Positions 2,258 to 23,531 of a DNA stretch of 40,648 bases are shown here, piece by piece. The position numbers were made by a program, and so were the translations under genes. This DNA comes from an uncultured Ignavibacteria bacterium. GTDB lineage: Bacteria > Bacteroidota > Ignavibacteria > Tepidaquicellales > Tepidaquicellaceae. The DNA lies in contig CALMST010000270.1 in assembly GCA_937872315.1 (NCBI GenBank), forward strand, positions 1 through 40,648, read 5' to 3'. Positions within the stretch are counted from its first letter, which is position 1; each line of letters begins with the position of its first letter. The notes under the pieces were generated by a model that did not search any database, was not told the DNA's origin, and saw only the letters and a list, made by a program, of their open reading frames with translations.

Positions 2258-2285
2258 ACTCAATACTCAATACTCAATACTCAAA
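2258..2285. repeat. ACTCAAT heptamer array over the end of the aminotransferase gene
   Basis: Three perfect ACTCAAT units and a fourth variant ACTCAAA lie in tandem. They cover the last codons and the stop of the minus-strand aminotransferase gene (which ends at 2267) and abut the terminator. Confidence 0.85.
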
Positions 2286-3469
2286 TAATCACTTTCCAGT
2301 ATAGACGCAAAAGCTGCAATGAAATAATCTATATTCTCTTTCGAAATTATCAACGGCGGAATAAGTCTTAGTACATTGTTGTTGGTAATATTGATAAAAA
2401 TATTTTTCTCCGCAAATTTCTGCATTAATGTTTGTGCGAATTCATCTTTAACCTCAACACCAAGCATCAACCCAATTCCTCTTATGTCTTTTATGATCTC
2501 AGGAAATTTTTTCTGTAATTGTTCAAGTTCGGTTTTCAATAATTTACCCATTTTATTTGCATTTTCCATAACTCCGTTTTCAAGTTCTTTCATCACTGCT
2601 ATACCGGCTGCGCATGAAACAGGATTGCCGCCAAAGGTCGTACCGTGTTCACCGGTTTTTATGATATCTTTGAGATCATCTTTTATTAAAACAACTCCAA
2701 GCGGAAGTCCGCCTCCGATACCTTTGGCAATGACACAAATGTCGGGTGTTATATCAAAGTGCTGAATAGAAAGAAACTTTCCCGTTCTGCCTGCTCCGCA
2801 CTGAATGCAGTCGGCAACAATAAGAAAATTATATTTGTGTTTTAGTTCCGTCAGTTTGTTAATGTAGCTCTCACTGACCGTACTCAAACCGCCTTCACCC
2901 TGAATGAATTCAAGAAAAACCGCAGCAGTATTTTCATCAACAGCTTCGGTTAGCTCTTTCTCATTGTTATGTGAAAGAAATTTAACACCAGGCATTAAAG
3001 GTTCATAACCAACTCTGTATTTTTCTTTATAGGTTAAAGACAAAGCCCCGTATGTCCTTCCGTGAAATCCTCCTTTAAAAGATATGATCTCGCTTTTACC
3101 AAGCGGGTTTGCATATTTACGGACGAGCTTAATGGCAGCTTCAATGGATTCGGTACCTGATGATGTCAGAAACAATTTATCGTATCCTGACAGTCTGAGA
3201 ATATTCTCCGCAAATTCGATCTGTGAATCCTGAAGAAAATAATTTGACAGGTGATTATATTTCTTCAATTGGTTTGTAATTGCTTCAGATACTGCCGGAT
3301 TATTGTAACCTAGAATATTCACCGCCAGTCCGGCAAACATATCAAGATATATCTCGCCTGATTTGGAATACAGCCAGACTCCTTTACCGTATTCGATCTC
3401 CTGTTCAAGCCGGTTGTATGTCTGAAGAAAAAACTTTTCTTCTTTTTGTTTGTTTGGTTTCACGCTCAT
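2267..3469 (-). CDS. argD: Class III aminotransferase, acetylornithine / succinyl-DAP type
   Basis: This PLP enzyme transfers an amino group from glutamate. In this operon the expected job is making N-succinyl-LL-diaminopimelate from the keto precursor (DapC role), and the same fold serves arginine synthesis (ArgD). It has full family length (400 aa). Visible motifs are TSSGTES (102-108) for phosphate binding, FHGRTYG (135-141), EFIQGEGG (187-194), D220 for the pyridine nitrogen, IAKGIGGG with the Schiff-base Lys249, and HGTTFGGNP. An oddity is that the usual Asp-Glu pair in DExQCGxGRTG reads ADCIQCGAGRTG here, with Cys221 in place of Glu. It is the last gene of the operon; its ATG shares one base with the stop of the decarboxylase gene (TAATG). 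The choice between ArgD and DapC rests on context. Confidence 0.85.
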   Translation of the reverse strand: MSVKPNKQKEEKFFLQTYNRLEQEIEYGKGVWLYSKSGEIYLDMFAGLAVNILGYNNPAVSEAITNQLKKYNHLSNYFLQDSQIEFAENILRLSGYDKLFLTSSGTESIEAAIKLVRKYANPLGKSEIISFKGGFHGRTYGALSLTYKEKYRVGYEPLMPGVKFLSHNNEKELTEAVDENTAAVFLEFIQGEGGLSTVSESYINKLTELKHKYNFLIVADCIQCGAGRTGKFLSIQHFDITPDICVIAKGIGGGLPLGVVLIKDDLKDIIKTGEHGTTFGGNPVSCAAGIAVMKELENGVMENANKMGKLLKTELEQLQKKFPEIIKDIRGIGLMLGVEVKDEFAQTLMQKFAEKNIFINITNNNVLRLIPPLIISKENIDYFIAAFASILESDYLSIEY

Positions 3470-4692
3470 TAATTTATAAACTCCTCGTAAGCTTTTTTAT
3501 GTGATAGAAAATCGGGCATACTTTCAGTAAAGCCATAAGCTCCGGCATTCAGAACTGCAAGTATGTCTCCGGGTTTTGTTTCGGGTAATTCAGCATTGTC
3601 ATCAAATTCATCAAGTGAAGTACAAAGCGGTCCGGCAATTAAATAATTTCCCTTACCGGCTCTTCCTTCGCGCAGTGCAGTAAGATTTACAAGGGGATGA
3701 TTCTGTCCTATAAGAGCAGGTCTGACCAGATGATGAACACCTCCGTCTGTAATAGCAATATTTTTTCCCTGAGACTCTTTAGTGTATAAAACTTTTGTCA
3801 AATATATTCCGCTAAGTCCCGAAAGGTATCTTCCCAATTCAAAATACATACTCGCATTCTTTGAAAATTTTTTGACTTTTTCATCCTTGAAAAATTCAAC
3901 AAGTCCTTTTCCGAGAGCACGTATGTCCATTTCATTTTCATCCCCGCTGTAAGGTATTCCGAATCCACCTCCGAGATCTATTCTTTTAACTTTGAGATCA
4001 AAATGATCATTAAAATGCATGGCAGTATTAATGACATCTTTAGTATTCTGCAGAATTTTTTTATGATCTAGTATCTGAGATGAGTTGAATATATGGATGC
4101 CATTAAGATTTATGTTCGCCATTTTATTTGCGAGTTTAATAAAATCCGGTATTTGTAAAAGATCTATCCCGAATTTGCTTACTCCGCTGCCACCAATAAT
4201 CCTGTTCTTTTCGCTTGAGTCAAACGGCGGATTAATTCTCACAAGTATATCCTGAATCATGTCTGCTTTTTCAGCTATTCTGTTTATCAGTTCGAGTTCC
4301 TGAAACGACTCCACATTAATACTGAGAATTTTTTTTGATACGGCAAACTTTATTTCCTTTTCGGTTTTTCCGGGTCCTGTTAACATCAAATGCTCATTGT
4401 CAAAGCCTGCAAACAATGCATTCTTCATTTCCATCAGCGAAGCAGTATCACAGCCGGCTCCGAGGTTATGTATAAATTTTAATATCTCTTTGTTTGGATT
4501 GCTCTTCTGAGCATAAAAGACCTTGAATTTTCCGGGTATATGTTTCCTGAATAATTCATACTGATGCGCAATGACCTTCTTGGAATAAAGATAAAAAGGA
4601 CTTTTGTAATTTTCTAAAAATGGTTTTATTTTTTCTATAGTATTAACAGCAAAAAACCTGTGCTTCTCAAGACTTGATCTATCAATATACAT
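3469..4692 (-). CDS. lysA: BtrK-like PLP decarboxylase in the LysA position
   Basis: This is a fold-type III PLP decarboxylase. By position it should do the last lysine step, diaminopimelate to L-lysine and CO2. Lys63 in VFYAQKSNPN binds PLP; LGGGFGIPY and ELGRYLSG are the phosphate and barrel motifs. The C-terminal half reads GPLCTSLD, then GDILAVLNAGAYGF and DFLSHKK. Classical LysA has CESxD and usually ends near SSxYN. The CTxLD plus FLSH pattern is that of BtrK and the exosortase-associated decarboxylases, so the substrate may differ (see findings). Length 407 aa is normal. Both ends overlap neighbours by one base as TAATG, which suggests translational coupling. The symbol is given from context and is less certain than the family. 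Confidence 0.75.
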   Translation of the reverse strand: MYIDRSSLEKHRFFAVNTIEKIKPFLENYKSPFYLYSKKVIAHQYELFRKHIPGKFKVFYAQKSNPNKEILKFIHNLGAGCDTASLMEMKNALFAGFDNEHLMLTGPGKTEKEIKFAVSKKILSINVESFQELELINRIAEKADMIQDILVRINPPFDSSEKNRIIGGSGVSKFGIDLLQIPDFIKLANKMANINLNGIHIFNSSQILDHKKILQNTKDVINTAMHFNDHFDLKVKRIDLGGGFGIPYSGDENEMDIRALGKGLVEFFKDEKVKKFSKNASMYFELGRYLSGLSGIYLTKVLYTKESQGKNIAITDGGVHHLVRPALIGQNHPLVNLTALREGRAGKGNYLIAGPLCTSLDEFDDNAELPETKPGDILAVLNAGAYGFTESMPDFLSHKKAYEEFIN

Positions 4693-5516
4693 TATCTTAA
4701 CAGATCCTCCAGACTGATTGACTTTCCTGTCTTGTCATCACGATATTTTATAATCACGGGACAATACAAGTGTATATTCTCCGCAACTCCTTTGCCCGAA
4801 CTAACAGGTCTGCTTCCGGCAACTACTACTGCATTCTCCGAAATTACTAAAGTCTTACCTTCTTCTTTTTTTATAAAATCTCCGTTAACATTATCAAATA
4901 CCGGAGTAGAGGCATTTAAAATCACACCCGTCCCTATCACCGCATTTTTTTTAATAACAGTACCTTCGTAAATTCCGCAATTGCCTCCTATGAAAACATT
5001 ATCCTCAATGATGACAGGCAATGCTCCTACCGGTTCTAGTACACCGCCGATCTGTGATGCTGCAGAAAGATGAACGTTCTTTCCGATCCTTGCGCATGAA
5101 CCGACCAGCGCATGTGAATCAATCATACTTCCTTCATCTACATAAGCTCCGATATTTATATAAGACGGCGGCATGATAATAGTCCCGCCTGCAACATATG
5201 CTCCGCTTCTTATTATTGAACCTCCGGGCACTATTCTTACTTTGTCATTTATTGATAAGTCTCTGAAAGCTAATGTATTCTTGTCAAAAAATTTCCAGTC
5301 TCCGATTTTTATCTCTGTCAGTTCGCCAAATTTAAATCCGAGTAAAATTGCTTCTTTTACCCATGCATTTACAATCCATTGATCATCTGTATATTCCACA
5401 ACCTGTACGTTTCCGATTTCAAGAGAACTGAGAAATTCCGGAAAAAACGACATCACATCTTCTCCGTTCAGATCATCTTTAGTTTTTAACTCATTGTATT
5501 TTTCTAATATTGTCAT
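4692..5516 (-). CDS. dapD: Tetrahydrodipicolinate N-succinyltransferase
   Basis: The enzyme transfers succinyl from succinyl-CoA to tetrahydrodipicolinate, committing the operon to the succinylase branch of lysine synthesis. The protein is 274 aa, the same length as E. coli DapD. A helical N-terminal domain is followed by a left-handed beta-helix of hexapeptide repeats (about residues 95-225), with the family hallmark stretches GAYVAGGTIIMPPSYINIG, GSMIDSHALVGSCA and ASQIGGVLEP. The family works as a cytoplasmic trimer. The start overlaps the dapA stop and the stop overlaps the lysA-like start, each as TAATG. Confidence 0.95.
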   Translation of the reverse strand: MTILEKYNELKTKDDLNGEDVMSFFPEFLSSLEIGNVQVVEYTDDQWIVNAWVKEAILLGFKFGELTEIKIGDWKFFDKNTLAFRDLSINDKVRIVPGGSIIRSGAYVAGGTIIMPPSYINIGAYVDEGSMIDSHALVGSCARIGKNVHLSAASQIGGVLEPVGALPVIIEDNVFIGGNCGIYEGTVIKKNAVIGTGVILNASTPVFDNVNGDFIKKEEGKTLVISENAVVVAGSRPVSSGKGVAENIHLYCPVIIKYRDDKTGKSISLEDLLR

Positions 5517-6394
5517 TACCTGATATTTAAATTTTGTAAAGTGCCTGCCATTATATCAAATGTTTTTCTTGTTGAAGGATAAAGCGGGGGTCGGAGTATG
5601 TTCTCGATCAATCCCAAAAACGCTAATCCGGCTTTTGCAGGTGTAGGATTGCTTTCTACAAAACAGCTTCTGAACAATGGCATTAATCTGTGATGTTCCG
5701 TGGCTGCATTTTTAAAATCATATCCAAGTATCAAATTCAGATAACCGGATAATTCTTTAGGCGCAAGATTTGACGCAACACTGATAACACCTTTAGCGCC
5801 TGTCGCGCAAAGAGAAAGTGTCTCATCGTCATTTCCCGATAATACAGAAAATCCTTCAGGGGAATCTCTTATGATCTCATTTATCTGATCATAATTGCTT
5901 GATGCCTCTTTTGTGGCAACAATGTTCTTAAGTTCAGCCAGTCTGAGACATGTGTCAGCATTCATGTTTATTGATGTTCTTGCCGGTACGTTATACATAA
6001 TTATCTTTTTTTCGGTGCATTCTGAGATTGCTTTAAAATGATTGTACATTCCCTGTTGTGTAGGCTTATTGTAATAAGGTGTAACAATCAGAAATGCATC
6101 CACTCCGGTTTTTTCAAATTCCTTTATGTTGCCGATAACGTGTTTAGTATTATTGCTGCCTGCACCGGCTACTACCGGAACTTTTCCTTTTGCTTCTTCT
6201 ACTGATATCTCAAGCAGCCTGAGTTTTTCATCATCTTCGAGGCAAGGTGTCTCTCCCGTAGTTCCGAGCGGAACTATAAAATGTATTCCGTTATCTATCT
6301 GCCTTTTTACAAGACTTCTGAATACATCATAATCAACAGACTGATCTTCTTTAAAAGGAGTAATTAATGCAGTGCCGCATCCTTTAATTTCCAT
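5516..6394 (-). CDS. dapA: 4-hydroxy-tetrahydrodipicolinate synthase
   Basis: DapA condenses aspartate semialdehyde with pyruvate, the first step specific to lysine. The 292-aa TIM barrel has GTTGETPCL (residues 44-52), Tyr134 in MYNVPARTS with Arg139 for the carboxylate, and the Schiff-base Lys162 in ATKEAS. SGNDD follows later. The length is normal. It lies between dapB (1-bp gap) and dapD (TAATG overlap). Feedback sensitivity to lysine cannot be judged from this reading. Confidence 0.95.
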   Translation of the reverse strand: MEIKGCGTALITPFKEDQSVDYDVFRSLVKRQIDNGIHFIVPLGTTGETPCLEDDEKLRLLEISVEEAKGKVPVVAGAGSNNTKHVIGNIKEFEKTGVDAFLIVTPYYNKPTQQGMYNHFKAISECTEKKIIMYNVPARTSINMNADTCLRLAELKNIVATKEASSNYDQINEIIRDSPEGFSVLSGNDDETLSLCATGAKGVISVASNLAPKELSGYLNLILGYDFKNAATEHHRLMPLFRSCFVESNPTPAKAGLAFLGLIENILRPPLYPSTRKTFDIMAGTLQNLNIR

Positions 6395-6395
6395 A

Positions 6396-7088
6396 TTATT
6401 TTTTATTTATTAATTTAGGTTTTATCATATCTTTGAAATTCCATATCCCTCCGGTTTCAGCTATCCATTCTGCCGCGATGACAGCGCCAAGAGCAAAACC
6501 CTCGCGTGAATATGCTTCATGTCTAACTGAAATTTTATCATATTCTGATTCAAATCCTGCTTCATGAATTCCTTTTATATAACCGCTTCTGACAGAGGAA
6601 ATTTCTGTTTCTCTTTCAGAACTTAAATTATTATCTATAATTTTTTTTATTGTGATAGCCGTACCTGATGGAACATCAAGCTTTTCCTTATGGTGAAGTT
6701 CGATTATGTAAGGATCATAATCCGCATGTTCGGAGATCAGTCCGGAAACAAGGTTCACTGCTTCAAAAAATATATTCACACCGAGCGAGAAATTAGATGC
6801 ATACACCAGGTTCGTATTTTTCTCTTTAAAATAATCAATGACTTCTGATTTAATGTCTTCCCAGCCGGTTGTTCCGACTACCACACTGCTGAATTTTTCC
6901 GCAAGAGTTTTATAATTCGCTTTGAATGCATCAGGTGTAGTAAAGTCAATGCAGACAGCATTGGAAACCGGCATTTCTGCAAGTTCTTTTTCCGAATCAA
7001 TTGTCTTTAAAAGATCATGACCTCTTTTTTTGAGAATGCCTTCTATGACCTTTCCCATTTTACCGTAACCGGTTATTACTATTTCCAT
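6396..7088 (-). CDS. dapB: 4-hydroxy-tetrahydrodipicolinate reductase
   Basis: DapB reduces the DapA product to tetrahydrodipicolinate with NAD(P)H. The 230-aa protein has an N-terminal Rossmann motif (GYGKMG, residues 7-12), DFTTPDAF, VGTTGW, and the substrate loop ELHHKEKLDVPSGTA with His132, His133 and Lys136. It is somewhat shorter than the usual 240-270 aa, mainly in the N-terminal half, but all key motifs are present. A 143-bp gap separates it from lysC upstream, the largest gap in the operon, so an internal promoter is possible there. Confidence 0.93.
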   Translation of the reverse strand: MEIVITGYGKMGKVIEGILKKRGHDLLKTIDSEKELAEMPVSNAVCIDFTTPDAFKANYKTLAEKFSSVVVGTTGWEDIKSEVIDYFKEKNTNLVYASNFSLGVNIFFEAVNLVSGLISEHADYDPYIIELHHKEKLDVPSGTAITIKKIIDNNLSSERETEISSVRSGYIKGIHEAGFESEYDKISVRHEAYSREGFALGAVIAAEWIAETGGIWNFKDMIKPKLINKK

Positions 7089-7231: not shown

Positions 7232-8596
7232 TCAGTTTTCAGCTGTTCCAAAAAATGTATCGTGCAATTTCTGCAACACTTCTTTCAATTTATCTTTATC
7301 CACTACAAAGCTGATATTGATAAGCGATGATCCGAGAGAGATCATTGTAATATTATAATCCGAAAGCACGCCGAATATCTTAGCCGCTATTCCTTTTGTG
7401 TTTCTGATATTACTTCCTACAACGCATACAAGTGATTTGTCTTTTTCGACATTTACCTTTGCAAATTCTGACAGTTCCGATTTTATCTCTTCCGGATAAT
7501 CATTGTTGTCCAGTGTAACTGAAACGTTAACTTCAGATGTAGTGATCAGATCAACGGAAGTTTTATGCCGGTCAAAAACCTCAAAAATTTTCCTGAGATA
7601 TCCGTATGAATTAAGCATCCTCATGGAAAATATATTCATCACCGTAATATTCTCCTTACAGGAAATTGATTTTACTTCTTTCCCATTATCAGAAACATAA
7701 TTAAGAATGATTGTGCCTTCGGTCTCAGGTGATCTGGAATTTTTTATCCATACCGGAATATTTTTTTCGACAGCAGGCTGAATAGTCATAGGGTGAAGAA
7801 CTTTCGCGCCGAAGTATGTGATCTCGGCAGCTTCCTCAAAAGATATTTTTGAAATTATCTTTGTACCCGTAACTTTGCCCGGATCGGCAGTCAGCATTCC
7901 GTCAACGTCTGTCCAGATCTGTATCTCTTCCGCATTCAAAGCCATGCCAACAAGTGATGCCGTATAATCCGAACCGCCTCTTCCGAGAACAGTCGGTGTT
8001 CCTTCCATCGAACTTGAAATAAATCCCTGTATTACCGGTACGGATCCGTTTTGAATACCTGCTGATAATGTGTTCTGTGTCCTGAGCGTAATCTCAGAAA
8101 TATTTGGCTCGCCTTTTAGAATGTTACTATCTGTAATTATAAAATCTCTCGAGTCAAGAAGCAAAGAGTTTATGCCTCTTTCTTTCATGGCAAAAGATGT
8201 CATAAGTGTTGACATAAGTTCGCCATAGGAAACAATTTTTACATGACTTTTTGGAGACAATTCAGATAAAAGAGAAACACCTTTCAGAAGATCTTTTATC
8301 TCTGAGAAATAATTTGTTAATTCCTGTTTGAGCCTGGAAAGAGAAGTTTCATCTTCAACGAGTCCTTTTGAAATTTCAAAATGTCTGTCTTTGAGATTCC
8401 CGATATCCTCATATGCCTTTGAGAGGTTGCCGTCAGCGGCGAGGTTAGCGCAATTGATCAGTGTATCTGTAGCTTTTGATATTGCTGACAGGACAACAAC
8501 CGGTTGTTCGTCAAGTTTGGATCTTACGATACCGCATAGTCTGTCAATAGCTTCCGCATCCTGTACAGACGTTCCGCCGAATTTCATTACTATCAT
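7232..8596 (-). CDS. lysC: Aspartate kinase
   Basis: LysC phosphorylates aspartate, the entry step for lysine, threonine and methionine. The 454-aa monofunctional enzyme starts MIVMKFGGTSV; it has VSYGELMST, GRGGSDYTASLVG and QIWTDVDGMLTADP for ATP and aspartate binding, and two C-terminal ACT domains (about residues 310-450) that would bind an allosteric amino acid. The start at 8596 overlaps the asd stop as ATGA, supporting coupling; a second ATG three codons in is the alternative start. Confidence 0.95.
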   Translation of the reverse strand: MIVMKFGGTSVQDAEAIDRLCGIVRSKLDEQPVVVLSAISKATDTLINCANLAADGNLSKAYEDIGNLKDRHFEISKGLVEDETSLSRLKQELTNYFSEIKDLLKGVSLLSELSPKSHVKIVSYGELMSTLMTSFAMKERGINSLLLDSRDFIITDSNILKGEPNISEITLRTQNTLSAGIQNGSVPVIQGFISSSMEGTPTVLGRGGSDYTASLVGMALNAEEIQIWTDVDGMLTADPGKVTGTKIISKISFEEAAEITYFGAKVLHPMTIQPAVEKNIPVWIKNSRSPETEGTIILNYVSDNGKEVKSISCKENITVMNIFSMRMLNSYGYLRKIFEVFDRHKTSVDLITTSEVNVSVTLDNNDYPEEIKSELSEFAKVNVEKDKSLVCVVGSNIRNTKGIAAKIFGVLSDYNITMISLGSSLINISFVVDKDKLKEVLQKLHDTFFGTAEN

Positions 8597-9630
8597 ATCA
8601 ATCCTTTCTTCACGAGATATTCCGCATTAATGATAGCTGCTCCGGCAGCACCCCGTATAGTGTTGTGTCCGAGTGCGGTATATTTCCAGTCAAGAACGCC
8701 GCATTCACGGAGATTACCTGCTGATACTGTCATACCGTTACCTTTTCCCGCATCCAGTAAAGGCTGAGGTCTGAATGGATCTTCAAAATATCTTATGACA
8801 TCAATTCCCGTGTCTTTCAAAAATTCAGAATTGTATTCATCGAGACTGTTTAATATTTCCATTCCTGAAGCTTTCTTTTCTGTCTCAAAAGAAACTGAAA
8901 TAGTATGTCCGTCTCTGACAGGAACTCTGTTGCACATAGCCGAAATTTTAAAATCTGCAAAATTAATTTTCCCGTTCTCATAGTTTCCGAAAATTTTTAG
9001 TGTCTCTGTTTCCATTTTCGCTTCCTCATCCGGAATATGCGGAATGACATTCCCGAGAATATCAAGTGAGGGAACTCCCGGATATCCTGCGCCGGAGATA
9101 GCCTGCATGGTTGTGACCATTACCTTTTTCAATCCGAAGCTTTTGTAAATTGGATAAAGAGACAGACAAAGCACTATGGTCGAACAGTTTGGATTTGTTA
9201 CAATAAATCCTTTCTTGTTATTCTGCTTTTGCGCTTCTATGAGTTTATAATGATCAGCATTTATTTCAGGGATGATAAGAGGCACATTATCAAACATTCT
9301 GTGATTTCTCGAATTACTGACTACGGCATAACCATTTTCAGCCATCGTACTCTCGATCTCACCTGCTACTTTGGAATCGAGTCCGGAAAACAAGATCTTA
9401 CAGCCGAGATCAGGCAGACAATTTTTTATCTTCATACCGGCAATGTTTTCCGGAATATCATTCGGCTCGAGCCAGTTAACCGCTTCCTCAAATACTTTAC
9501 CGGCAGATCTTTCTGAAGCCGCAATTTCAGTTACTTCGAACAAAGGATGCTTATCGAGAAGCGCTATAAGTTTCTGTCCCACTGCTCCTGTGCATCCGAG
9601 CACGCCTGCTTTTATTTTTTCTTGACTCAT
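8593..9630 (-). CDS. asd: Aspartate-semialdehyde dehydrogenase (archaeal/fungal-like type)
   Basis: The enzyme reduces aspartyl phosphate to the semialdehyde with NADPH. The 345-aa protein has an N-terminal Rossmann motif GCTGAVGQ (12-19), catalytic Cys149 in TNPNCSTI, and the histidine in RVPVRDGHT. The segment MQAISGAGYPGVPS resembles the archaeal and fungal branch of the family rather than the E. coli branch. It overlaps lysC by 4 bp and lies about 19 bp after the M20 gene, so all three are probably co-transcribed. Confidence 0.93.
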   Translation of the reverse strand: MSQEKIKAGVLGCTGAVGQKLIALLDKHPLFEVTEIAASERSAGKVFEEAVNWLEPNDIPENIAGMKIKNCLPDLGCKILFSGLDSKVAGEIESTMAENGYAVVSNSRNHRMFDNVPLIIPEINADHYKLIEAQKQNNKKGFIVTNPNCSTIVLCLSLYPIYKSFGLKKVMVTTMQAISGAGYPGVPSLDILGNVIPHIPDEEAKMETETLKIFGNYENGKINFADFKISAMCNRVPVRDGHTISVSFETEKKASGMEILNSLDEYNSEFLKDTGIDVIRYFEDPFRPQPLLDAGKGNGMTVSAGNLRECGVLDWKYTALGHNTIRGAAGAAIINAEYLVKKGLI

Positions 9631-9649: not shown

Positions 9650-10645
9650 TCAGTTTAGTTTTTGTTTTAATTTTTCATATATATCAATAAGATCATCAAC
9701 TGCTTTGTTCATATCCGAAATTTTAACTTTCTCATTCACGGTATGAGCATCCAGTATGCTGCCCGGACCATAGAGAAGACATTCGCCGAGATTATATAAT
9801 TCCGGGGCATCGCTTCCGTATGATACAACTCCCGTTTCAAAGCCATCGACGGTTACAAAGTCCATTGGTCTGTCACCGTATTTAAAATTCACTTCCGTCA
9901 GTTCATCGGTAAGCAGAGGAATGATCTCTTTCATATGATCATGTGTTGCTTTTGTTGTTCTGAAAAATATCTTCAGGCTTGCCTTTTCCGATACTACGTT
10001 ATGCGCATTATCGGAAACAACTTTACCAATGTTGAATGTAGTCTCACCGAGAATTTCATCTAAGGTGAATTCATATCTTCTCAATCTCTCTATGAATGAA
10101 GACATTCTCATAACGGCATCATCACCGTTTTCCGGATAACCGGAATGACAGGATCTGCCTTTAAAAACAAACTCTGCAAGAATATTACCTTTTGATGCGC
10201 GGATTAATTTATTTTCTGTCGGCTCTCCGACAATTACATACTTACTTCCGGTTATAACTTTGTTAGCGGCAATCGCCCCGTAAGAACCCACCTCTTCACC
10301 TGCCAGCATCAGCAGTCCGAAATTTGTATGACCTTTTTCAAAAAGTTTTTCACAGACATAAGCCAATACTGCGATCTGACCTTTTGCGTCGCAGGATCCT
10401 CTGCCTTTGATAAGATCTCCATCAAGCGACGGAGGAATGTAAGGAGGCACAGTGTCAAAATGCGAACAGAAAATTATTTCAGGCTTACCCCATTTATAAA
10501 ATAAATTCTTCTTTCCGTTTTCAATATCTATTACTTCTAACTCGGATCCTTCGGGGTTATAACTGCTTATTAGAAAATCCGCAACAGAATTCTCACTTCC
10601 CGAAGTGGAGTCTATATTCATTATGCTGATTAAAAATCCGGTCAA
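9650..10645 (-). CDS. dapE: M20 metallopeptidase, succinyl-DAP desuccinylase type
   Basis: This is a di-zinc hydrolase of the ArgE/DapE/LysK group. In this operon the expected reaction is removal of succinyl from N-succinyl-LL-DAP. From the chosen start, the ligands and base are His63 in CSHFDTV, Asp87 in GRGSCDAKG, Glu118-Glu119 in LAGEEVGS, and a late His in LDAHTVNE. The start is uncertain. The frame opens at a TTG at 10771, but the first 40 residues are unlike the family. Homology seems to begin at FLISIMNIDSTSGSE, so TTG at 10645 keeps the first helix, while the only ATG (10621) would cut it. It is the first gene of the operon. Acetylornithine deacetylase is the alternative activity. Confidence 0.8.
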   Translation of the reverse strand: MTGFLISIMNIDSTSGSENSVADFLISSYNPEGSELEVIDIENGKKNLFYKWGKPEIIFCSHFDTVPPYIPPSLDGDLIKGRGSCDAKGQIAVLAYVCEKLFEKGHTNFGLLMLAGEEVGSYGAIAANKVITGSKYVIVGEPTENKLIRASKGNILAEFVFKGRSCHSGYPENGDDAVMRMSSFIERLRRYEFTLDEILGETTFNIGKVVSDNAHNVVSEKASLKIFFRTTKATHDHMKEIIPLLTDELTEVNFKYGDRPMDFVTVDGFETGVVSYGSDAPELYNLGECLLYGPGSILDAHTVNEKVKISDMNKAVDDLIDIYEKLKQKLN

Positions 10646-11135
10646 TATTATATTTTTATCTTTTGCAAAAATTGTTTTACCGCTAATCCCCGGGACGGAG
10701 CAAAGACACAAAAGGTATTGTTGAAAACCTGAAATAATCAAATTTTCATTTACCGCCTGAATCTCCGGCAATTTTCCGGTGGAAATCCGATGGTAATTAT
10801 TTAAAGTCTCTGAAATGAATTGGGATTTTAATTGGCTTTCAGGATTATTGAATTTTTTGTTTTTTAATTCAAAAAAAGACCTGCAAATTTACTAAAAAAA
10901 AGTAAGTTTTAATATTCAAAAATGGGAATTTGGACACTGCATTGTTATCCCACCTCTGACCACTCTCCGGATCGGAAAGGGGAATATAGCGGAGATTATA
11001 GTAATATTATTAAGTTTCCTTACCGGGCAGGGTTTGGTGAGGAGTGTAAAATACTTTCACAAATCCAAGAATTTGGATTCTCAGACAGCAATGAAGTATA
11101 TGATTAAATCTGTGAGTATATTATATTTTCCGAAT
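10646..11135. other. Upstream region of the lysine operon
   Basis: This region lies between the start of the lysine operon and the end of the sugar dehydrogenase gene, both minus strand, so it should hold the operon promoter. On the minus strand TAAATTTG (10891-10884) fits the Bacteroidota -7 consensus TAnnTTTG, but the nearest TTG upstream is 25 bases away, longer than usual. No lysine riboswitch or attenuator was recognised. The rest holds a ~100-bp direct repeat copy. Confidence 0.4.
10948..11047. repeat. ~100-bp intergenic repeat, copy 1
   Basis: This shares long identical blocks with 12696-12799, including CTCTCCGGATCGGAAAGGGG, TAATATTATTAAGTTTCC and GGTGAGGAG, in the same orientation. 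Internal short inverted pairs (CCTTACC with GGTGAGG) could form hairpins. The two copies flank the sugar dehydrogenase gene. Confidence 0.85.
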
Positions 11136-17385: not shown

Positions 17386-20235
17386 ATGAAGACAAAACTA
17401 CTTCTTCTATTGTCATTTCTTATGGTGTCCTGGTTTATGTATTCAGGATTCTCAAATGATGACGACAGTCCCAGATGGAACATTAACCCTAGCACAAGAA
17501 TCAGTATAAGTCCGGAAGGACAATATGTAGATCTTCCTCAGGGTACAAATGAAAAATACAGCAATGAAATAAGATACACTTCAACTCCACAAGGTGTATT
17601 TGCTGTCGGTCCAAACTTCAGAGTTCATCCAAGATCAGCAGGAACTCAGAGTGAAACACCAATTACCAGACACCCGTTAAATCCCAACTTCATGTATGCA
17701 TCAGCCAATACCTGGCAGGGCGGACTTTTCTGCACTTCATGGTATGTAACCACCAACGGCGGACTAACCTGGACGGGTAATGACTCAATGATCTCATCAG
17801 GAGGCGCATTTGTCAATAACAACGGTGATCCCGCTCCGATGGTAATGTACACCGGCAGAATGCTGATCTCTTATATCACTACTGCAGGAAGAATGGGTGC
17901 AAGCTATTCCACGAACAACGGAACTAACTGGTCATCTACCGTTACTTTCCCGGGTTCATCAACTGCATCTGATAAAAACCTATCGGCTACCGACGGACAA
18001 CCGTCAAGCCCTTATTACGGGAGATGCTATACAGTTTATACTGAATTTTCAGGTGCTTACGTAAACAGGATCGTATCTACATATTCCGATGACGGTGGTC
18101 TGACTTGGTCATCCGTAATTCCTGTCAGCCCGGTTCCTTCCGCAGGACATCATCATCAGGGATGTGATATCGTTGTGGACGTTTACGGATGGTGCCGTGT
18201 GGTATGGGCAAACTGTACTACCAACGGTCAGAACTCCACTGAGGATTCGCTCGGATGGGCAGAATCCGGTACGGGAGGTACATCATGGAGTGATGCTTCA
18301 AATCATAAGGTTAATACAAACGGAATCAGAACTTCAGATCTGCTTCCTTCTCCTCCAGCCGGAGTAATCAGAATGAACGGCTTTCCGAGAATTGCTACAG
18401 ACAGAACGTGTTTGTCTTCCAGAGACGATGATTATGTAGTAATGGCAGAAAAGAATTTTGCGCCGGCAATTGACAATGCTGATATAGTATTAATGAAAAC
18501 TCCTGACGGAGGATCATCATGGACAAGAACAAGGGTCAATCAGAATGCTGCAGGACCTTATGAATACTGTCCCGCAGTGGATGTTGATGAAACCGGAGCA
18601 ATTAATGTTGTTTATTACAGTACAAGAAACACAGCTACAAATGACTCTGCTGAGATATATCTGTCAAGATCCACTGACGGCGGAGCTACATTTACGGATA
18701 TTAAAGTATCTGATCATAAATTCAAACCACTGCCGATCTCCGGACTTGCTTCAGGATATCAGGGTGATTATATAGGCGTCACATCAGGCGGACCCGGAAA
18801 AATAGTTGCTTACTGGTGTGAGCAGGGTCCTTCAAGCGGAGGAAGATATCAGGCATGGTCTTCATTAATTGATATTACAAAAGGCGAGATCTGTGAAGAT
18901 TTTTCCTGTGATAATAACGCAGGTACATCTACATTGCCGGTTTATACTCCGAATTTCTTTGAAGAATACTCCGGAACGAATTACTGGAGAATTTTAACTC
19001 CAAGCGCTTACAACATCGGAGCTAATTCCGCAAGATTTAATTGCTGGTCAGCAGCTGCCGGGACACAGCAGTCACTTGTTTCATACCAGTTCCCGAATGC
19101 ACCGGCAAATACATATATAACTTTTGATGTTGCATACCAGCCATGGTCAGGCGGAAATGTTGATTCGCTTATTATCGAAACTTCTTCAAACCAGGGAGCT
19201 TCATATACCATTCGTGAAAAACTCTGGGGAGGTCTCGGTGCGCAGGCTGGTCCTTTAAATACAGTATTCACCGGCGGCGGGCAGTTAACTCCTACAGGCG
19301 GACAATGGAGATCAAGGATATATCCTATTCCTTCCGGAACAAACAAGATCAAGCTGAGAGCCAGAAGCGGATTCGGTAATGATATCTGGCTTGATAATAT
19401 CTGTGTCCAGACCTTACCTACACCTATTAATAATTCAATCGGGCTTGCAAACCAGGCAATGTTCATTAATACAAATCCTTACTGGAGACTTGCAAATGAA
19501 CCTGTGAAAGTATATCTGCACAGAACAGATTTCCCGAATATAGTTGTTGACTCTGCAACCGGAACTATGGGATCCAATGCAGTATGCGGTGATCTTCTCT
19601 TCAACAGAGCATTGAATGGTACTTACTACAAAGAGGTAAGACACAGAAATTCACTGGAGACCTGGAGCATAGTAGGTACTTCATACACAAGAGGAAGCAA
19701 TTCAAATTATAACTTCATTCAACCAGATAATCAGGCATACGGAAACAATCAGGCTGTAGTAAGTACATCTCCATTCTACAGAGGAATTTACAGCGGTGAT
19801 GTTGACCAGAATGGTTTAATTGATCTTGGTGATCTGATTGTAATTTACAATGATGCTATAAATTTTGTATCAGGATATGAAATAACGGATCTTAACGGTG
19901 ATCTGTTTACCAACTTAACGGATGTGTTGTATGCATATAATAACGCAGCCGATTTTGTTCAGGTATCAAGACCTCCGGGAGCCGAGCCGTTACCTGCTCC
20001 TCTTGAGGAAGAGGTTTCAAAACCTGTTTCTTTTGAAAATGATGCAGACAGACAGAAGTATGAACTTACTCAGAAATTATCTGAGCTGCAGATAACTGAC
20101 ATTGCAGAAGTATATGTTCCAAACTGGGGTGTCGATCTTAATGATGTTGAAAGATTAAGAAAAATGAAGATCGAAGAACAGAAAAACCTTAAATTAAATA
20201 TTAAGGTAGAAAATAATAACGCAGGAAACAGATAA
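17386..20235 (+). CDS. Large Asp-box propeller surface protein, paralogue A
   Basis: A 949-aa secreted protein. An N-terminal signal segment (about 1-22) is followed by a sialidase-like propeller with Asp-box motifs (TTNGGLTW, STNNGTNW, SDDGGLTW, TPDGGSSW, STDGGATF) to about residue 505. Next is a jelly-roll-like adhesion domain (about 520-690, EEYSGTNYW to GFGNDIWLDNICVQ), then a beta domain (VYLHRTDFPN, VRHRNSLETWS). A dockerin-like pair (802-872) has calcium-loop pattern GDVDQNGLIDLGD and TDLNGDLFTNLTD. A charged tail of about 77 residues ends NNAGNR. There is no classical T9SS domain. Catalytic sialidase residues are not evident, so an adhesive or structural role is more likely. GAAAGGAA precedes the ATG. 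Confidence 0.8.
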   Translation: MKTKLLLLLSFLMVSWFMYSGFSNDDDSPRWNINPSTRISISPEGQYVDLPQGTNEKYSNEIRYTSTPQGVFAVGPNFRVHPRSAGTQSETPITRHPLNPNFMYASANTWQGGLFCTSWYVTTNGGLTWTGNDSMISSGGAFVNNNGDPAPMVMYTGRMLISYITTAGRMGASYSTNNGTNWSSTVTFPGSSTASDKNLSATDGQPSSPYYGRCYTVYTEFSGAYVNRIVSTYSDDGGLTWSSVIPVSPVPSAGHHHQGCDIVVDVYGWCRVVWANCTTNGQNSTEDSLGWAESGTGGTSWSDASNHKVNTNGIRTSDLLPSPPAGVIRMNGFPRIATDRTCLSSRDDDYVVMAEKNFAPAIDNADIVLMKTPDGGSSWTRTRVNQNAAGPYEYCPAVDVDETGAINVVYYSTRNTATNDSAEIYLSRSTDGGATFTDIKVSDHKFKPLPISGLASGYQGDYIGVTSGGPGKIVAYWCEQGPSSGGRYQAWSSLIDITKGEICEDFSCDNNAGTSTLPVYTPNFFEEYSGTNYWRILTPSAYNIGANSARFNCWSAAAGTQQSLVSYQFPNAPANTYITFDVAYQPWSGGNVDSLIIETSSNQGASYTIREKLWGGLGAQAGPLNTVFTGGGQLTPTGGQWRSRIYPIPSGTNKIKLRARSGFGNDIWLDNICVQTLPTPINNSIGLANQAMFINTNPYWRLANEPVKVYLHRTDFPNIVVDSATGTMGSNAVCGDLLFNRALNGTYYKEVRHRNSLETWSIVGTSYTRGSNSNYNFIQPDNQAYGNNQAVVSTSPFYRGIYSGDVDQNGLIDLGDLIVIYNDAINFVSGYEITDLNGDLFTNLTDVLYAYNNAADFVQVSRPPGAEPLPAPLEEEVSKPVSFENDADRQKYELTQKLSELQITDIAEVYVPNWGVDLNDVERLRKMKIEEQKNLKLNIKVENNNAGNR

Positions 20236-20687: not shown

Positions 20688-23531
20688 ATGAATCTCAAAG
20701 TACTTTTTACTATCTCAGTTTTTTTTCTTTTCGGGACAATATATTTCGGATTTACTCCGAATGATGACAGTCCTAAATGGAATCCAGACCCAAGAACTGC
20801 TATTTCTCAAAATCCTGAAGGACAGTATGTAGATCTTCCTCAGGGAACATTGGATAATTACAGTTCAGAAACACGATATACCTCAACTCCACAGGGAGTT
20901 TTTGCAGTCGGACCGAATTTCAGAGTTCATCCGAGAACAGCCGGAACTCAAAGTGAAGTTCCGATCACAAAACACCCTTTAAATCCGAATATAATGTATG
21001 CGTCAGCAAATACTTTCCAGGGCGGAAATTTCTGCACAGGCTGGTATGTAACCACTGATGGCGGCGTTTCATGGACAGGAAATGATTCCATGTATACAAC
21101 AGGCGGAGTTTTTCAGCCTAATTTCGGAGATCCTGCTCCTATGATCATGCACACCGGTAGATTTCTGATCTCATACATAACAACTACAGGAAGAATGGGT
21201 GCAAGTTATTCTACAAACAACGGAGCTAGCTGGGCGCCGACTGTAACTTTCCCAGGCGCCGGTACATCTTCGGATAAAAATCTTTCAGCTGTTGACGGTG
21301 AACCAACAAGCGCTTACTACGGCAGATGCTATACTGTCTATACAGAATTCAGCGGTGCTTATGTTAACAGGATCGTTTCAACTTATTCAACTGACGGCGG
21401 AGTTACCTGGTCAACTATCATCCCAATAAGTCCCGTGCCTTCTGCAGGTCATCACCATCAGGGTTGTGATGTTACTGTTGATATTTATGGATTTGTCAGA
21501 GTTGTCTATGCCAACTGTACAACTAACGGACAGAATTCCACTGAAGATTATTTAGGCTGGGCTGAATCAGGAAATGGCGGAGTTTCCTTTTCGGATATGT
21601 CTGATGTTAAAGTTAATACTAACGGAATAAGATCATCAGATTTTCTTACTGCTTCATCTTCAATAATAAGGGTAAACGGATTTCCAAGAATTGCTTCGGA
21701 CAGAACCTGTTTCTCAACTGCTGATGATGATTATGTAGTCATGGCTGAAAAGAATTTTTCCCCGGCTATTGATAACGGTGATATAGTTTTAATGAGAACT
21801 CAGGACGGTGGCAGCTCATGGACAAGAACAAGGGTCAATCAGAGTGCATCCGGAGCATATGAATGGTGTCCGGCAGTTGATGTTGATGAAACTGGCGCAA
21901 TTAATATTTGCTACTACAGCACTAGAAATGTTCCGACAAGTGATTCAGCGGAGATTTATCTTTCAAGATCTACTGACGGAGGTACTACATTTACTGATAT
22001 TAAAGTATCAGATCACAAATTCAAACCTGTTCCTATCTCTGGAACAGCAACAGGCTATCAGGGTGATTATATCGGTATTACTTCAGGCGGCGCCGGAAAG
22101 ATCCTGCCATACTGGTGCGAAGGAAGCACAGTCAGCGGTGGAAGATATCAGGCATGGTCAGCTTTGGTCGATGTAACAAAATCTAATATCAGTGAAGATT
22201 TTTCCTGTAATAATTTTACAGGTACTTTAACCACACCTGTTTATACGAGCAATTTATTTGAAGAATACTCAGGAACAAATTACTGGACTGTACAAACACC
22301 ATCTGCTTATAATATCGGAACTGGCGCAGCAAGATTCAATTGCTGGTCAGCAGCAGCGGGAACACAGCAATCGCTGATAACTTATCAGATCCCGAATGCT
22401 CCCGGAAATACTTATGTTACATTTGATGTAGCATACAGACCATGGTCAGGTGGAAATGTTGATTCTCTTATCATCGAAACTTCAAACAACAGCGGAGCTT
22501 CTTATACGATTCGTGAAAAACTATGGGGAGGTCTCGGAGCACAGGCAGGACCTCTTAATACAGTATTTTCGGGCGGCGGACAGTTCGTTCCTACAGGCGG
22601 TCAATGGTCGCCAAGGATATATGCTATTCCTGCCGGAACAAATAAGATCAAGATCAGAGGCAGAAGCGGATTCGGAAATGATATTTGGGTGGATAATCTG
22701 AATGTTCAGACTCTGCCGAATGCTGTGGAAAATAATATAGGATTATTAAACGAAGCAATGTTCTTACCAAGTGATCCTTTCTGGAGATTACTTGATACAG
22801 TATCTGTATATTTGCACAGAACGGATTTTCCGAACGTGGTTGTTGATTCATCCAGAGGTGTAATTATAAACGGAGGAAATGCTGTTGTTCAGGACTTGTA
22901 TTTTAACAAAGCTCTGACAGGTTCATATTACAGAGTTGTAAAACACAGAAATTCATTGGAGACCTGGAGTAATGCAGGTGTTACTTATACTAGAGGTGGC
23001 GGAGGTTCTTATAACTTTGTACCAAATAACGCATCTTACGGAAACAACATGGCGACTGTAAGCACATCTCCTTTATACAAAGGTCAGTACAGTGGTGATG
23101 TGGATCAAAATGGTATAATAGATCTCGGCGATCTGATAATTATATATAATGATGCTATTAATTTTGTAAACGGTTATGAAGTTTCTGATCTTGATGGAAA
23201 TTTGATAACAGACCTGACAGATCTTCTATATGCCTACAATAATGCTACATCTTTTGTTCAGGTAGTAAGACCTCCGGGAGCAGAACCACTTCCTGCACCT
23301 CAGATGGAAGAAGATACAAAACCTTTATCTTTTGAAAATGATGCTGACAGGCAAAAGTTTGAACTAACCCAGAGATTAATGGAACTGCAGAAAACTGATA
23401 TTGCAGAAAAGTATGTTCCTGACTGGGGAATCGATCTGAAAGATGCTGACAGATTAAGAAAAATTAAGATCGAAGATCAGAAAGATCTGAAGTTATATAT
23501 AAAAGTAGAAGGAAGTAACGCAGGTAATTAA
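20688..23531 (+). CDS. Large Asp-box propeller surface protein, paralogue B
   Basis: A 947-aa tandem duplicate of the preceding gene, collinear over its whole length with the same domain order: signal segment, Asp-box propeller (STNNGASW, STDGGVTW, TQDGGSSW, STDGGTTF), jelly-roll region, VYLHRTDFPN domain, dockerin-like pair (GDVDQNGIIDLGD, SDLDGNLITDLTD) and charged tail ending GSNAGN. The motif PSAGHHHQGCD is conserved with paralogue A. Its own terminator suggests a monocistronic unit. The region upstream is largely tandem repeats, so the promoter is probably within the last ~100 bp. Ligand unknown. Confidence 0.8.
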   Translation: MNLKVLFTISVFFLFGTIYFGFTPNDDSPKWNPDPRTAISQNPEGQYVDLPQGTLDNYSSETRYTSTPQGVFAVGPNFRVHPRTAGTQSEVPITKHPLNPNIMYASANTFQGGNFCTGWYVTTDGGVSWTGNDSMYTTGGVFQPNFGDPAPMIMHTGRFLISYITTTGRMGASYSTNNGASWAPTVTFPGAGTSSDKNLSAVDGEPTSAYYGRCYTVYTEFSGAYVNRIVSTYSTDGGVTWSTIIPISPVPSAGHHHQGCDVTVDIYGFVRVVYANCTTNGQNSTEDYLGWAESGNGGVSFSDMSDVKVNTNGIRSSDFLTASSSIIRVNGFPRIASDRTCFSTADDDYVVMAEKNFSPAIDNGDIVLMRTQDGGSSWTRTRVNQSASGAYEWCPAVDVDETGAINICYYSTRNVPTSDSAEIYLSRSTDGGTTFTDIKVSDHKFKPVPISGTATGYQGDYIGITSGGAGKILPYWCEGSTVSGGRYQAWSALVDVTKSNISEDFSCNNFTGTLTTPVYTSNLFEEYSGTNYWTVQTPSAYNIGTGAARFNCWSAAAGTQQSLITYQIPNAPGNTYVTFDVAYRPWSGGNVDSLIIETSNNSGASYTIREKLWGGLGAQAGPLNTVFSGGGQFVPTGGQWSPRIYAIPAGTNKIKIRGRSGFGNDIWVDNLNVQTLPNAVENNIGLLNEAMFLPSDPFWRLLDTVSVYLHRTDFPNVVVDSSRGVIINGGNAVVQDLYFNKALTGSYYRVVKHRNSLETWSNAGVTYTRGGGGSYNFVPNNASYGNNMATVSTSPLYKGQYSGDVDQNGIIDLGDLIIIYNDAINFVNGYEVSDLDGNLITDLTDLLYAYNNATSFVQVVRPPGAEPLPAPQMEEDTKPLSFENDADRQKFELTQRLMELQKTDIAEKYVPDWGIDLKDADRLRKIKIEDQKDLKLYIKVEGSNAGN

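Follow-up and report, generated by a model that had tools for sequence, protein, structure and literature searches.

Here we describe a fold-III PLP-dependent decarboxylase, encoded in a lysine operon of an uncultured Ignavibacteria bacterium, which very probably takes over the last step of lysine synthesis from LysA; this degree of confidence attaches to the last-step role and to no single substrate. The window, i.e., the whole stretch of DNA analyzed, comprises 40,648 nucleotides. All four DAP routes are described as ending in one shared step, the action of LysA on meso-diaminopimelate (meso-DAP) (PMC8277567), and here classical LysA would have been displaced by an enzyme of the BtrK/exosortase branch. 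The first-pass annotation had suggested such a recruitment, and the suggestion is well supported by three lines of evidence: the exact co-occurrence of the gene with dapA and dapB, the conservation of the operon, and a copy in a Bdellovibrionota metagenome-assembled genome (MAG) devoid of LysA. These observations, like the tree and the residues discussed below, were obtained by computation.

Some considerations weigh against the last-step role. A Thermotoga LysA variant with the same Glu-to-Thr change (E315T) lost most of its DAP activity (PMC8277567), and the enzymes characterized on the BtrK side have substrates that are acylated or bound to a carrier (PMC7857480).

Organization of the operon

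The minus strand of the window contains a run of eight genes, in the order M20-asd-lysC-dapB-dapA-dapD-decarboxylase-argD:

2267..3469, minus strand: class III aminotransferase, ArgD/DapC type (TIGR00707, 417.7 bits, above the cut-off of 410.05)
3469..4692, minus strand: fold-III PLP decarboxylase, proposed LysA replacement (407 aa, ATG start; Pfam PF02784 and PF00278)
4692..5516, minus strand: dapD, tetrahydrodipicolinate N-succinyltransferase (NF008808, 305 bits, above the cut-off of 204)
5516..6394, minus strand: dapA (TIGR00674, 319 bits, above cut-off)
6396..7088, minus strand: dapB (TIGR00036, 135.9 bits, above cut-off)
7232..8596, minus strand: lysC, lysine-sensitive-type aspartokinase (NF006570, 484.6 bits, above the cut-off of 455)
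8593..9630, minus strand: asd, aspartate-semialdehyde dehydrogenase (TIGR00978, 414.6 bits, above cut-off)
9650..10771, minus strand: M20 deacylase, ArgE/DapE type, candidate desuccinylase (TIGR01910, 115.7 bits, below the cut-off of 217.6)

The operon holds lysine-pathway genes only, ligase and carrier-protein genes being absent from it. The decarboxylase gene overlaps each of its neighbors, dapD and the aminotransferase gene, by one base, which suggests that the three are translationally coupled. A search for a lysine riboswitch upstream of the operon returned none.

The locus had been described as a textbook lysine operon, which is right as regards the flanking lysine genes and too generous in two respects: the eight-gene run includes no dapF, and the M20 enzyme is of a generic ArgE/DapE type, for which the DapE equivalog cut-off was not reached in any NCBIfam model. 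The dapF gene of this genome sits outside the operon, directly after a gene which we take to be lptD-like. Its product passes the DapF equivalog cut-off, and meso-DAP can therefore be made in this organism.

M20 homologues are the first gene of the operon in five other genomes. The true start of the M20 gene at 9650-10771 is probably internal, since its orthologues measure only about 330 aa. A paralogue with 56% identity lies elsewhere in the same genome (L191:1498-2487), beside a gene that is presumably FtcD-like, and in two relatives the operon copy of M20 is closer to this paralogue than to the M20 of the window. Elsewhere in the window, two adjacent ORFs (17386-20235 and 20688-23531; 949 and 947 aa), each with weak BNR-repeat matches, are possibly a tandem duplication.

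Co-occurrence with dapA and dapB and the search for LysA

Among 29 genomes of the GTDB family, that of the window included, orthologues of the decarboxylase (about 52-83% identity) are found in 11, a count that takes in split copies from two fragmented assemblies. dapA and dapB are each present in 11/29, and these are the same 11 genomes; the remaining 18 lack all three genes, and one genus (g8) contains both states. Being genomes of a single family, they are not mutually independent in these counts. The order M20-asd-lysC-dapB-dapA-dapD-decarboxylase is intact in five other genomes from five genera, and partial in a sixth where a contig end cuts the operon; in the full loci read, a set that leaves out G018, G020, G026 and G028 among the 11, the decarboxylase gene is always the last of the dap genes. 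The observation is far from a chance one: orthologues occur in 11 family genomes, and every locus that was read shows this operon. The genomic context is that of a LysA: a place in the operon and 11/11 co-occurrence with dapA and dapB.

A second, classical lysA was sought, as had been advised, in the genome of the window and in its family, and no LysA with the CE(S/T)xD motif was found across the 29 genomes; the sister family does carry one, scoring about 466 bits. The genome of the window is a MAG, 96% complete in 386 contigs, so that lysA could be missing by chance; yet the same absence extends across the whole family. LysW, which belongs to the aminoadipate route, is lacking in this genome and in all but one of the family.

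Two other fold-III decarboxylases were considered as hidden LysA enzymes and discarded. The only other one in the genome of the window (474 aa, L001:1060-2484, contig C174) has GPCCFASD, and neither the LysA Glu nor the RP arginine; it adjoins a 370-aa gene with no NCBIfam match. A further conserved enzyme of 450-470 aa occurs in family genomes (L047-L054, L058-L060) and carries GPLCMNID; it also lacks the LysA Glu and Arg, and its top NCBIfam score is for the N-citrylornithine decarboxylase FslC (202.6 bits, cut-off 500).

DapF occurs across the family irrespective of dapA and dapB, and for this reason gives no help on the substrate. Several of the 18 genomes without dapA and dapB are 98-99% complete, LysW is missing in all but one, nearly all carry a DapF homologue, and their MurE, where read (among loci L154-L180), has the meso-DAP-type DNPR motif. 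The third residue of the stem peptide and lysine might be obtained by uptake in these organisms, or lanthionine might be used, both standing as possibilities; for DapF homologues, other roles are possible (PMC11602996).

The Bdellovibrionota copy

When 84,980 species genomes were scanned for motif patterns typical of the clade, a procedure that detects only genomes keeping one of two short motifs, ten loci were returned, nine of them titled Ignavibacteria(e) or Bacteroidetes and one belonging to an Oligoflexia (Bdellovibrionota) MAG. A sample of 395 genomes spanning the phylum contained no other comparable protein.

In the Oligoflexia MAG (L102:3136-9230), the asd-lysC-dapB-dapA-dapD-decarboxylase block is intact, with 63-74% identity to the window; it adjoins hslVU, and the M20 and aminotransferase genes are absent there. 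No LysA was found in this MAG, whose sole other intact fold-III match is SpeA-sized, accompanied by a decayed fragment, and the only strong ArgE/DapE-type M20 found is a YgeY-type enzyme. The copy is an apparent transfer of the whole pathway as an Ignavibacterial-type lysine operon. That it would be a misbinned Ignavibacterial contig is conceivable but not supported: the operon loci of Ignavibacteria contain no hslVU, and the GC content is continuous.

Family scores, fold and phylogeny

The best NCBIfam score of the decarboxylase, 299.9 bits, is for the exosortase-associated model TIGR03099, far under its cut-off of 478.45; the LysA equivalog TIGR01048 gives 290.5 bits (cut-off 297.9) and the FslC model 91.6 bits (cut-off 500). 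About half of the orthologues exceed the TIGR01048 cut-off, with 303-309 bits. Annotation pipelines would consequently name these lysA. The AlphaFold model has a mean pLDDT of 83.4, and its best PDB matches are BtrK, SbnH and the Helicobacter pylori DAP decarboxylase, i.e., Helicobacter LysA, at about 28-29% identity each; BtrK is the best PDB match by sequence as well as by fold.

A phylogeny with LysA, BtrK and exosortase types, recommended in the first-pass annotation, resolves the decarboxylase clade, the BtrK/exosortase-like enzymes and LysA as three groups, each monophyletic. Rooted with SpeA, the tree places the clade outside both LysA and the BtrK/exosortase clade, as sister to the latter (SH-aLRT 100). 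An AU test (p 0.007) rejects the topology in which the clade and LysA are united to the exclusion of BtrK, the SpeA outgroup branch being very long. The earlier designation "BtrK-type" therefore stands for the side of the tree on which the enzyme falls, and needs amendment in that the enzyme belongs to a separate, mosaic clade keeping an arginine that BtrK-type enzymes lack.

Could the enzyme nevertheless be an ordinary LysA in which the motif change is harmless? The orthologues that pass TIGR01048, scoring up to 308.7 bits, speak for it. Besides the rejected topology, however, three features of LysA have been replaced, namely its Glu, its stacking His and its C-terminal YN.R, and in the Thermotoga enzyme that Glu matters for function (PMC8277567), all of which makes this reading very improbable.

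Active-site residues

The alignment used to compare residues comprised 10 sequences of the decarboxylase clade, 10 BtrK-like enzymes and 27 LysA. The relevant elements are:

3610..3633, minus strand: GPLCTSLD, residues 354-361, the C357 loop, with Thr358 at the LysA Glu position
3721..3723, minus strand: Arg324, within HHLVRPAL, the counterpart of Arg285 in Thermotoga LysA (distal carboxylate)
4075..4095, minus strand: HIFNSSQ, residues 200-206, with Phe202 at the place of the PLP-stacking His
3523..3525, minus strand: Glu390, four residues past the PLP-phosphate Tyr386, invariant and unique in the clade
3499..3510, minus strand: FLSH, residues 395-398 (DFLSH, 394-398), common to the BtrK/exosortase type, where LysA has YN.R

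GPLCTSLD and the C-terminal DFLSH had been noticed previously in the product of 3469-4692, and both are there, on the minus strand. At the position of Thr358, T occurs in 10/10 clade members and in 9/10 BtrK-like enzymes, and E in 27/27 LysA; at that of Arg324, R occurs throughout the clade (10/10) and LysA (27/27), and in 0/10 BtrK-like enzymes. Where the clade has Glu390, A is found in 9/10 BtrK-like enzymes and M or L in 25/27 LysA. More generally, the clade has R324, P325, L327, K173, I165 and H332 in common with LysA alone, and P66, P107, Y297, P333, L356, T358, F395 and L396 with BtrK-like enzymes alone, while Q62, M103, E161, I166, G167, N203, S204, E390 and M392 are its own; among the latter, Asn203 and Ser204 of HIFNSSQ occur in no other group of the alignment. 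In terms of its residues, the clade reads as a LysA/BtrK mosaic. The specificity-helix segment has the length of that of LysA, to which most BtrK-like enzymes add 4-5 residues.

In Thermotoga LysA, R249 and R285 hold the distal carboxylate of the substrate and E315 its distal amine; H179 is stacked on PLP, whose phosphate is contacted by Y343 and S182 (PMC8277567). That this Glu contacts the substrate in DAP decarboxylases had been stated in the first-pass annotation. Matched by motif, with Thermotoga LysA lying outside the residue alignment, the Thermotoga residues correspond to R288, R324, T358, F202, Y386 and S205 of the window enzyme (for R249, R285, E315, H179, Y343 and S182, respectively). 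The E315T change converted Thermotoga LysA into a D-2-aminopimelate decarboxylase; with most other substitutions of E315, DAP activity persisted only at a reduced level (PMC8277567). The natural enzyme therefore bears the substitution that spoiled Thermotoga LysA, yet the carboxylate clamp R288/R324 has been kept.

We infer from these residues how the enzyme would work. Lys63 would carry PLP, and Arg288 and Arg324 would hold the distal carboxylate of the substrate, as in LysA. Since Thr358 occupies the position of the usual Glu, the latter cannot hold the distal amine, which would be held by another group or else would not be a free amine. Glu390 is a candidate for replacing the lost Glu in this function. 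Loops 162-171, 357-362 and 387-395 of the AlphaFold model have pLDDT below 50, so that distances to Glu390 cannot be judged from it; as these are the decisive loops, the model was dropped as a guide to the active site.

The same Glu-to-Thr change that turns Thermotoga LysA into a 2-aminopimelate decarboxylase (PMC8277567) lends some plausibility to a different product, as had been contemplated earlier, e.g., a diamine or a 2-aminopimelate derivative, lysine being obtained from elsewhere. Furthermore, clade-2 enzymes besides the DAP and D-ornithine decarboxylases usually belong to specialized metabolism (PMC7857480). Against this stand the strict linkage to dapA, dapB, dapD, asd and lysC, an operon with no ligase or carrier-protein gene, and the fact that the genome shows no other lysine route, LysW being absent; a different product is thus improbable, although a little less so than an ordinary LysA.

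Free or acylated substrate

Within the last-step role, free DAP, meso and LL forms taken together, is our first-choice substrate, a preference that we hold with some reserve. If the enzyme used meso-DAP in the manner of LysA, the distal amine would fall to a residue other than the usual Glu, with Glu390 as the candidate. It is quite conceivable, at somewhat less than even chances, that lysine is made without a DAP epimerase, by an L-center-specific, BtrK-derived enzyme acting either on LL-DAP or on N-succinyl-LL-DAP before desuccinylation. The two routes are variants of the best explanation that differ in substrate.

In the first, free LL-DAP would be converted into L-lysine in one step with no need for DapF. 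BtrK, from the sister group, uses an L-center (PMC7857480), and dapF lies outside the operon in the genome of the window, its presence in the family being unrelated to that of dapA and dapB. On the other hand, no sequence marker of the choice between D- and L-centers emerged from this analysis, and DapF is intact, which makes meso-DAP available to a D-specific enzyme. Taken by itself, free LL-DAP is rather unlikely.

In the second, which we regard as slightly less likely again, N-succinyl-LL-DAP would be decarboxylated at its free L-center into N2-succinyl-L-lysine, from which the M20 deacylase would release L-lysine; if so, lysine would need neither DapF nor the action of DapE on DAP. The known relatives in which the Glu is replaced, FigC (with a C354-M355 loop), SbnH, AcsE and BtrK, all use an L-center with the distal group acylated or tethered (PMC7857480). 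Plasmid BtrK-like genes adjoin AMP-ligase and carrier-protein genes. Binding of the distal carboxylate by Arg288 and Arg324 would be retained, DapD is encoded in the operon, and the M20 enzyme reaches no DapE equivalog cut-off. Nevertheless, the resemblance of the specificity-helix segment to that of LysA, in length as in sequence, suggests a pocket of the size of DAP. The M20 enzyme could equally be an ordinary DapE, and a relative that has no dap genes carries the same type; for that reason it was set aside as an arbiter between free and acylated substrates.

Implications

The displacement of LysA by a relative from the carrier-bound/acyl branch would mean that the last step of lysine synthesis is replaceable. 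Should lysine indeed be made here without a DAP epimerase, this would constitute a new ending of the pathway, mobile between phyla as a single operon. The origin of the choice between D- and L-centers within the fold would be testable by a simple swap. Moreover, pipelines hide LysA replacements of this kind, the lysA cut-off being passed by part of the orthologues.

The component families are known. Of their combination, in which a complete lysine operon has an enzyme from the BtrK side as its only candidate for DAP decarboxylation, no description was found in a search that took in only a minority of subscription journals. The literature searched yielded no papers on a decarboxylase of N-succinyl-DAP or LL-DAP.

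Comparison with known systems

With LysA (TIGR01048) the decarboxylase has in common the fold, the PLP lysine, the position at the end of a dap operon, both distal-carboxylate arginines and the length of the specificity-helix segment. It differs in having Thr for the distal-amine Glu and Phe for the PLP-stacking His, in ending with FLSH where LysA has YN.R, and in lying outside the LysA clade.

BtrK, the L-glutamyl-[BtrI carrier protein] decarboxylase (2J66, 7RU7), resembles it in CTxxD, in an aromatic residue at the place of the stacking His and in FLxH; unlike the window enzyme, BtrK lacks the RPAL arginine and belongs to a separate clade, and the operon described here has no carrier protein or ligase. 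The exosortase A system-associated decarboxylase (TIGR03099) shares CTxLD and AYGL..FLxH, whereas the window enzyme remains far below the cut-off of that model, has no exosortase or acyl-CoA ligase context and keeps the LysA Arg324. Finally, FigC/FslC, SbnH and AcsE, which act on acyl substrates, share the overall fold, and in FigC the Glu of the Cys loop is also replaced (Met355); these enzymes, however, have a siderophore context and a lower similarity to the decarboxylase.
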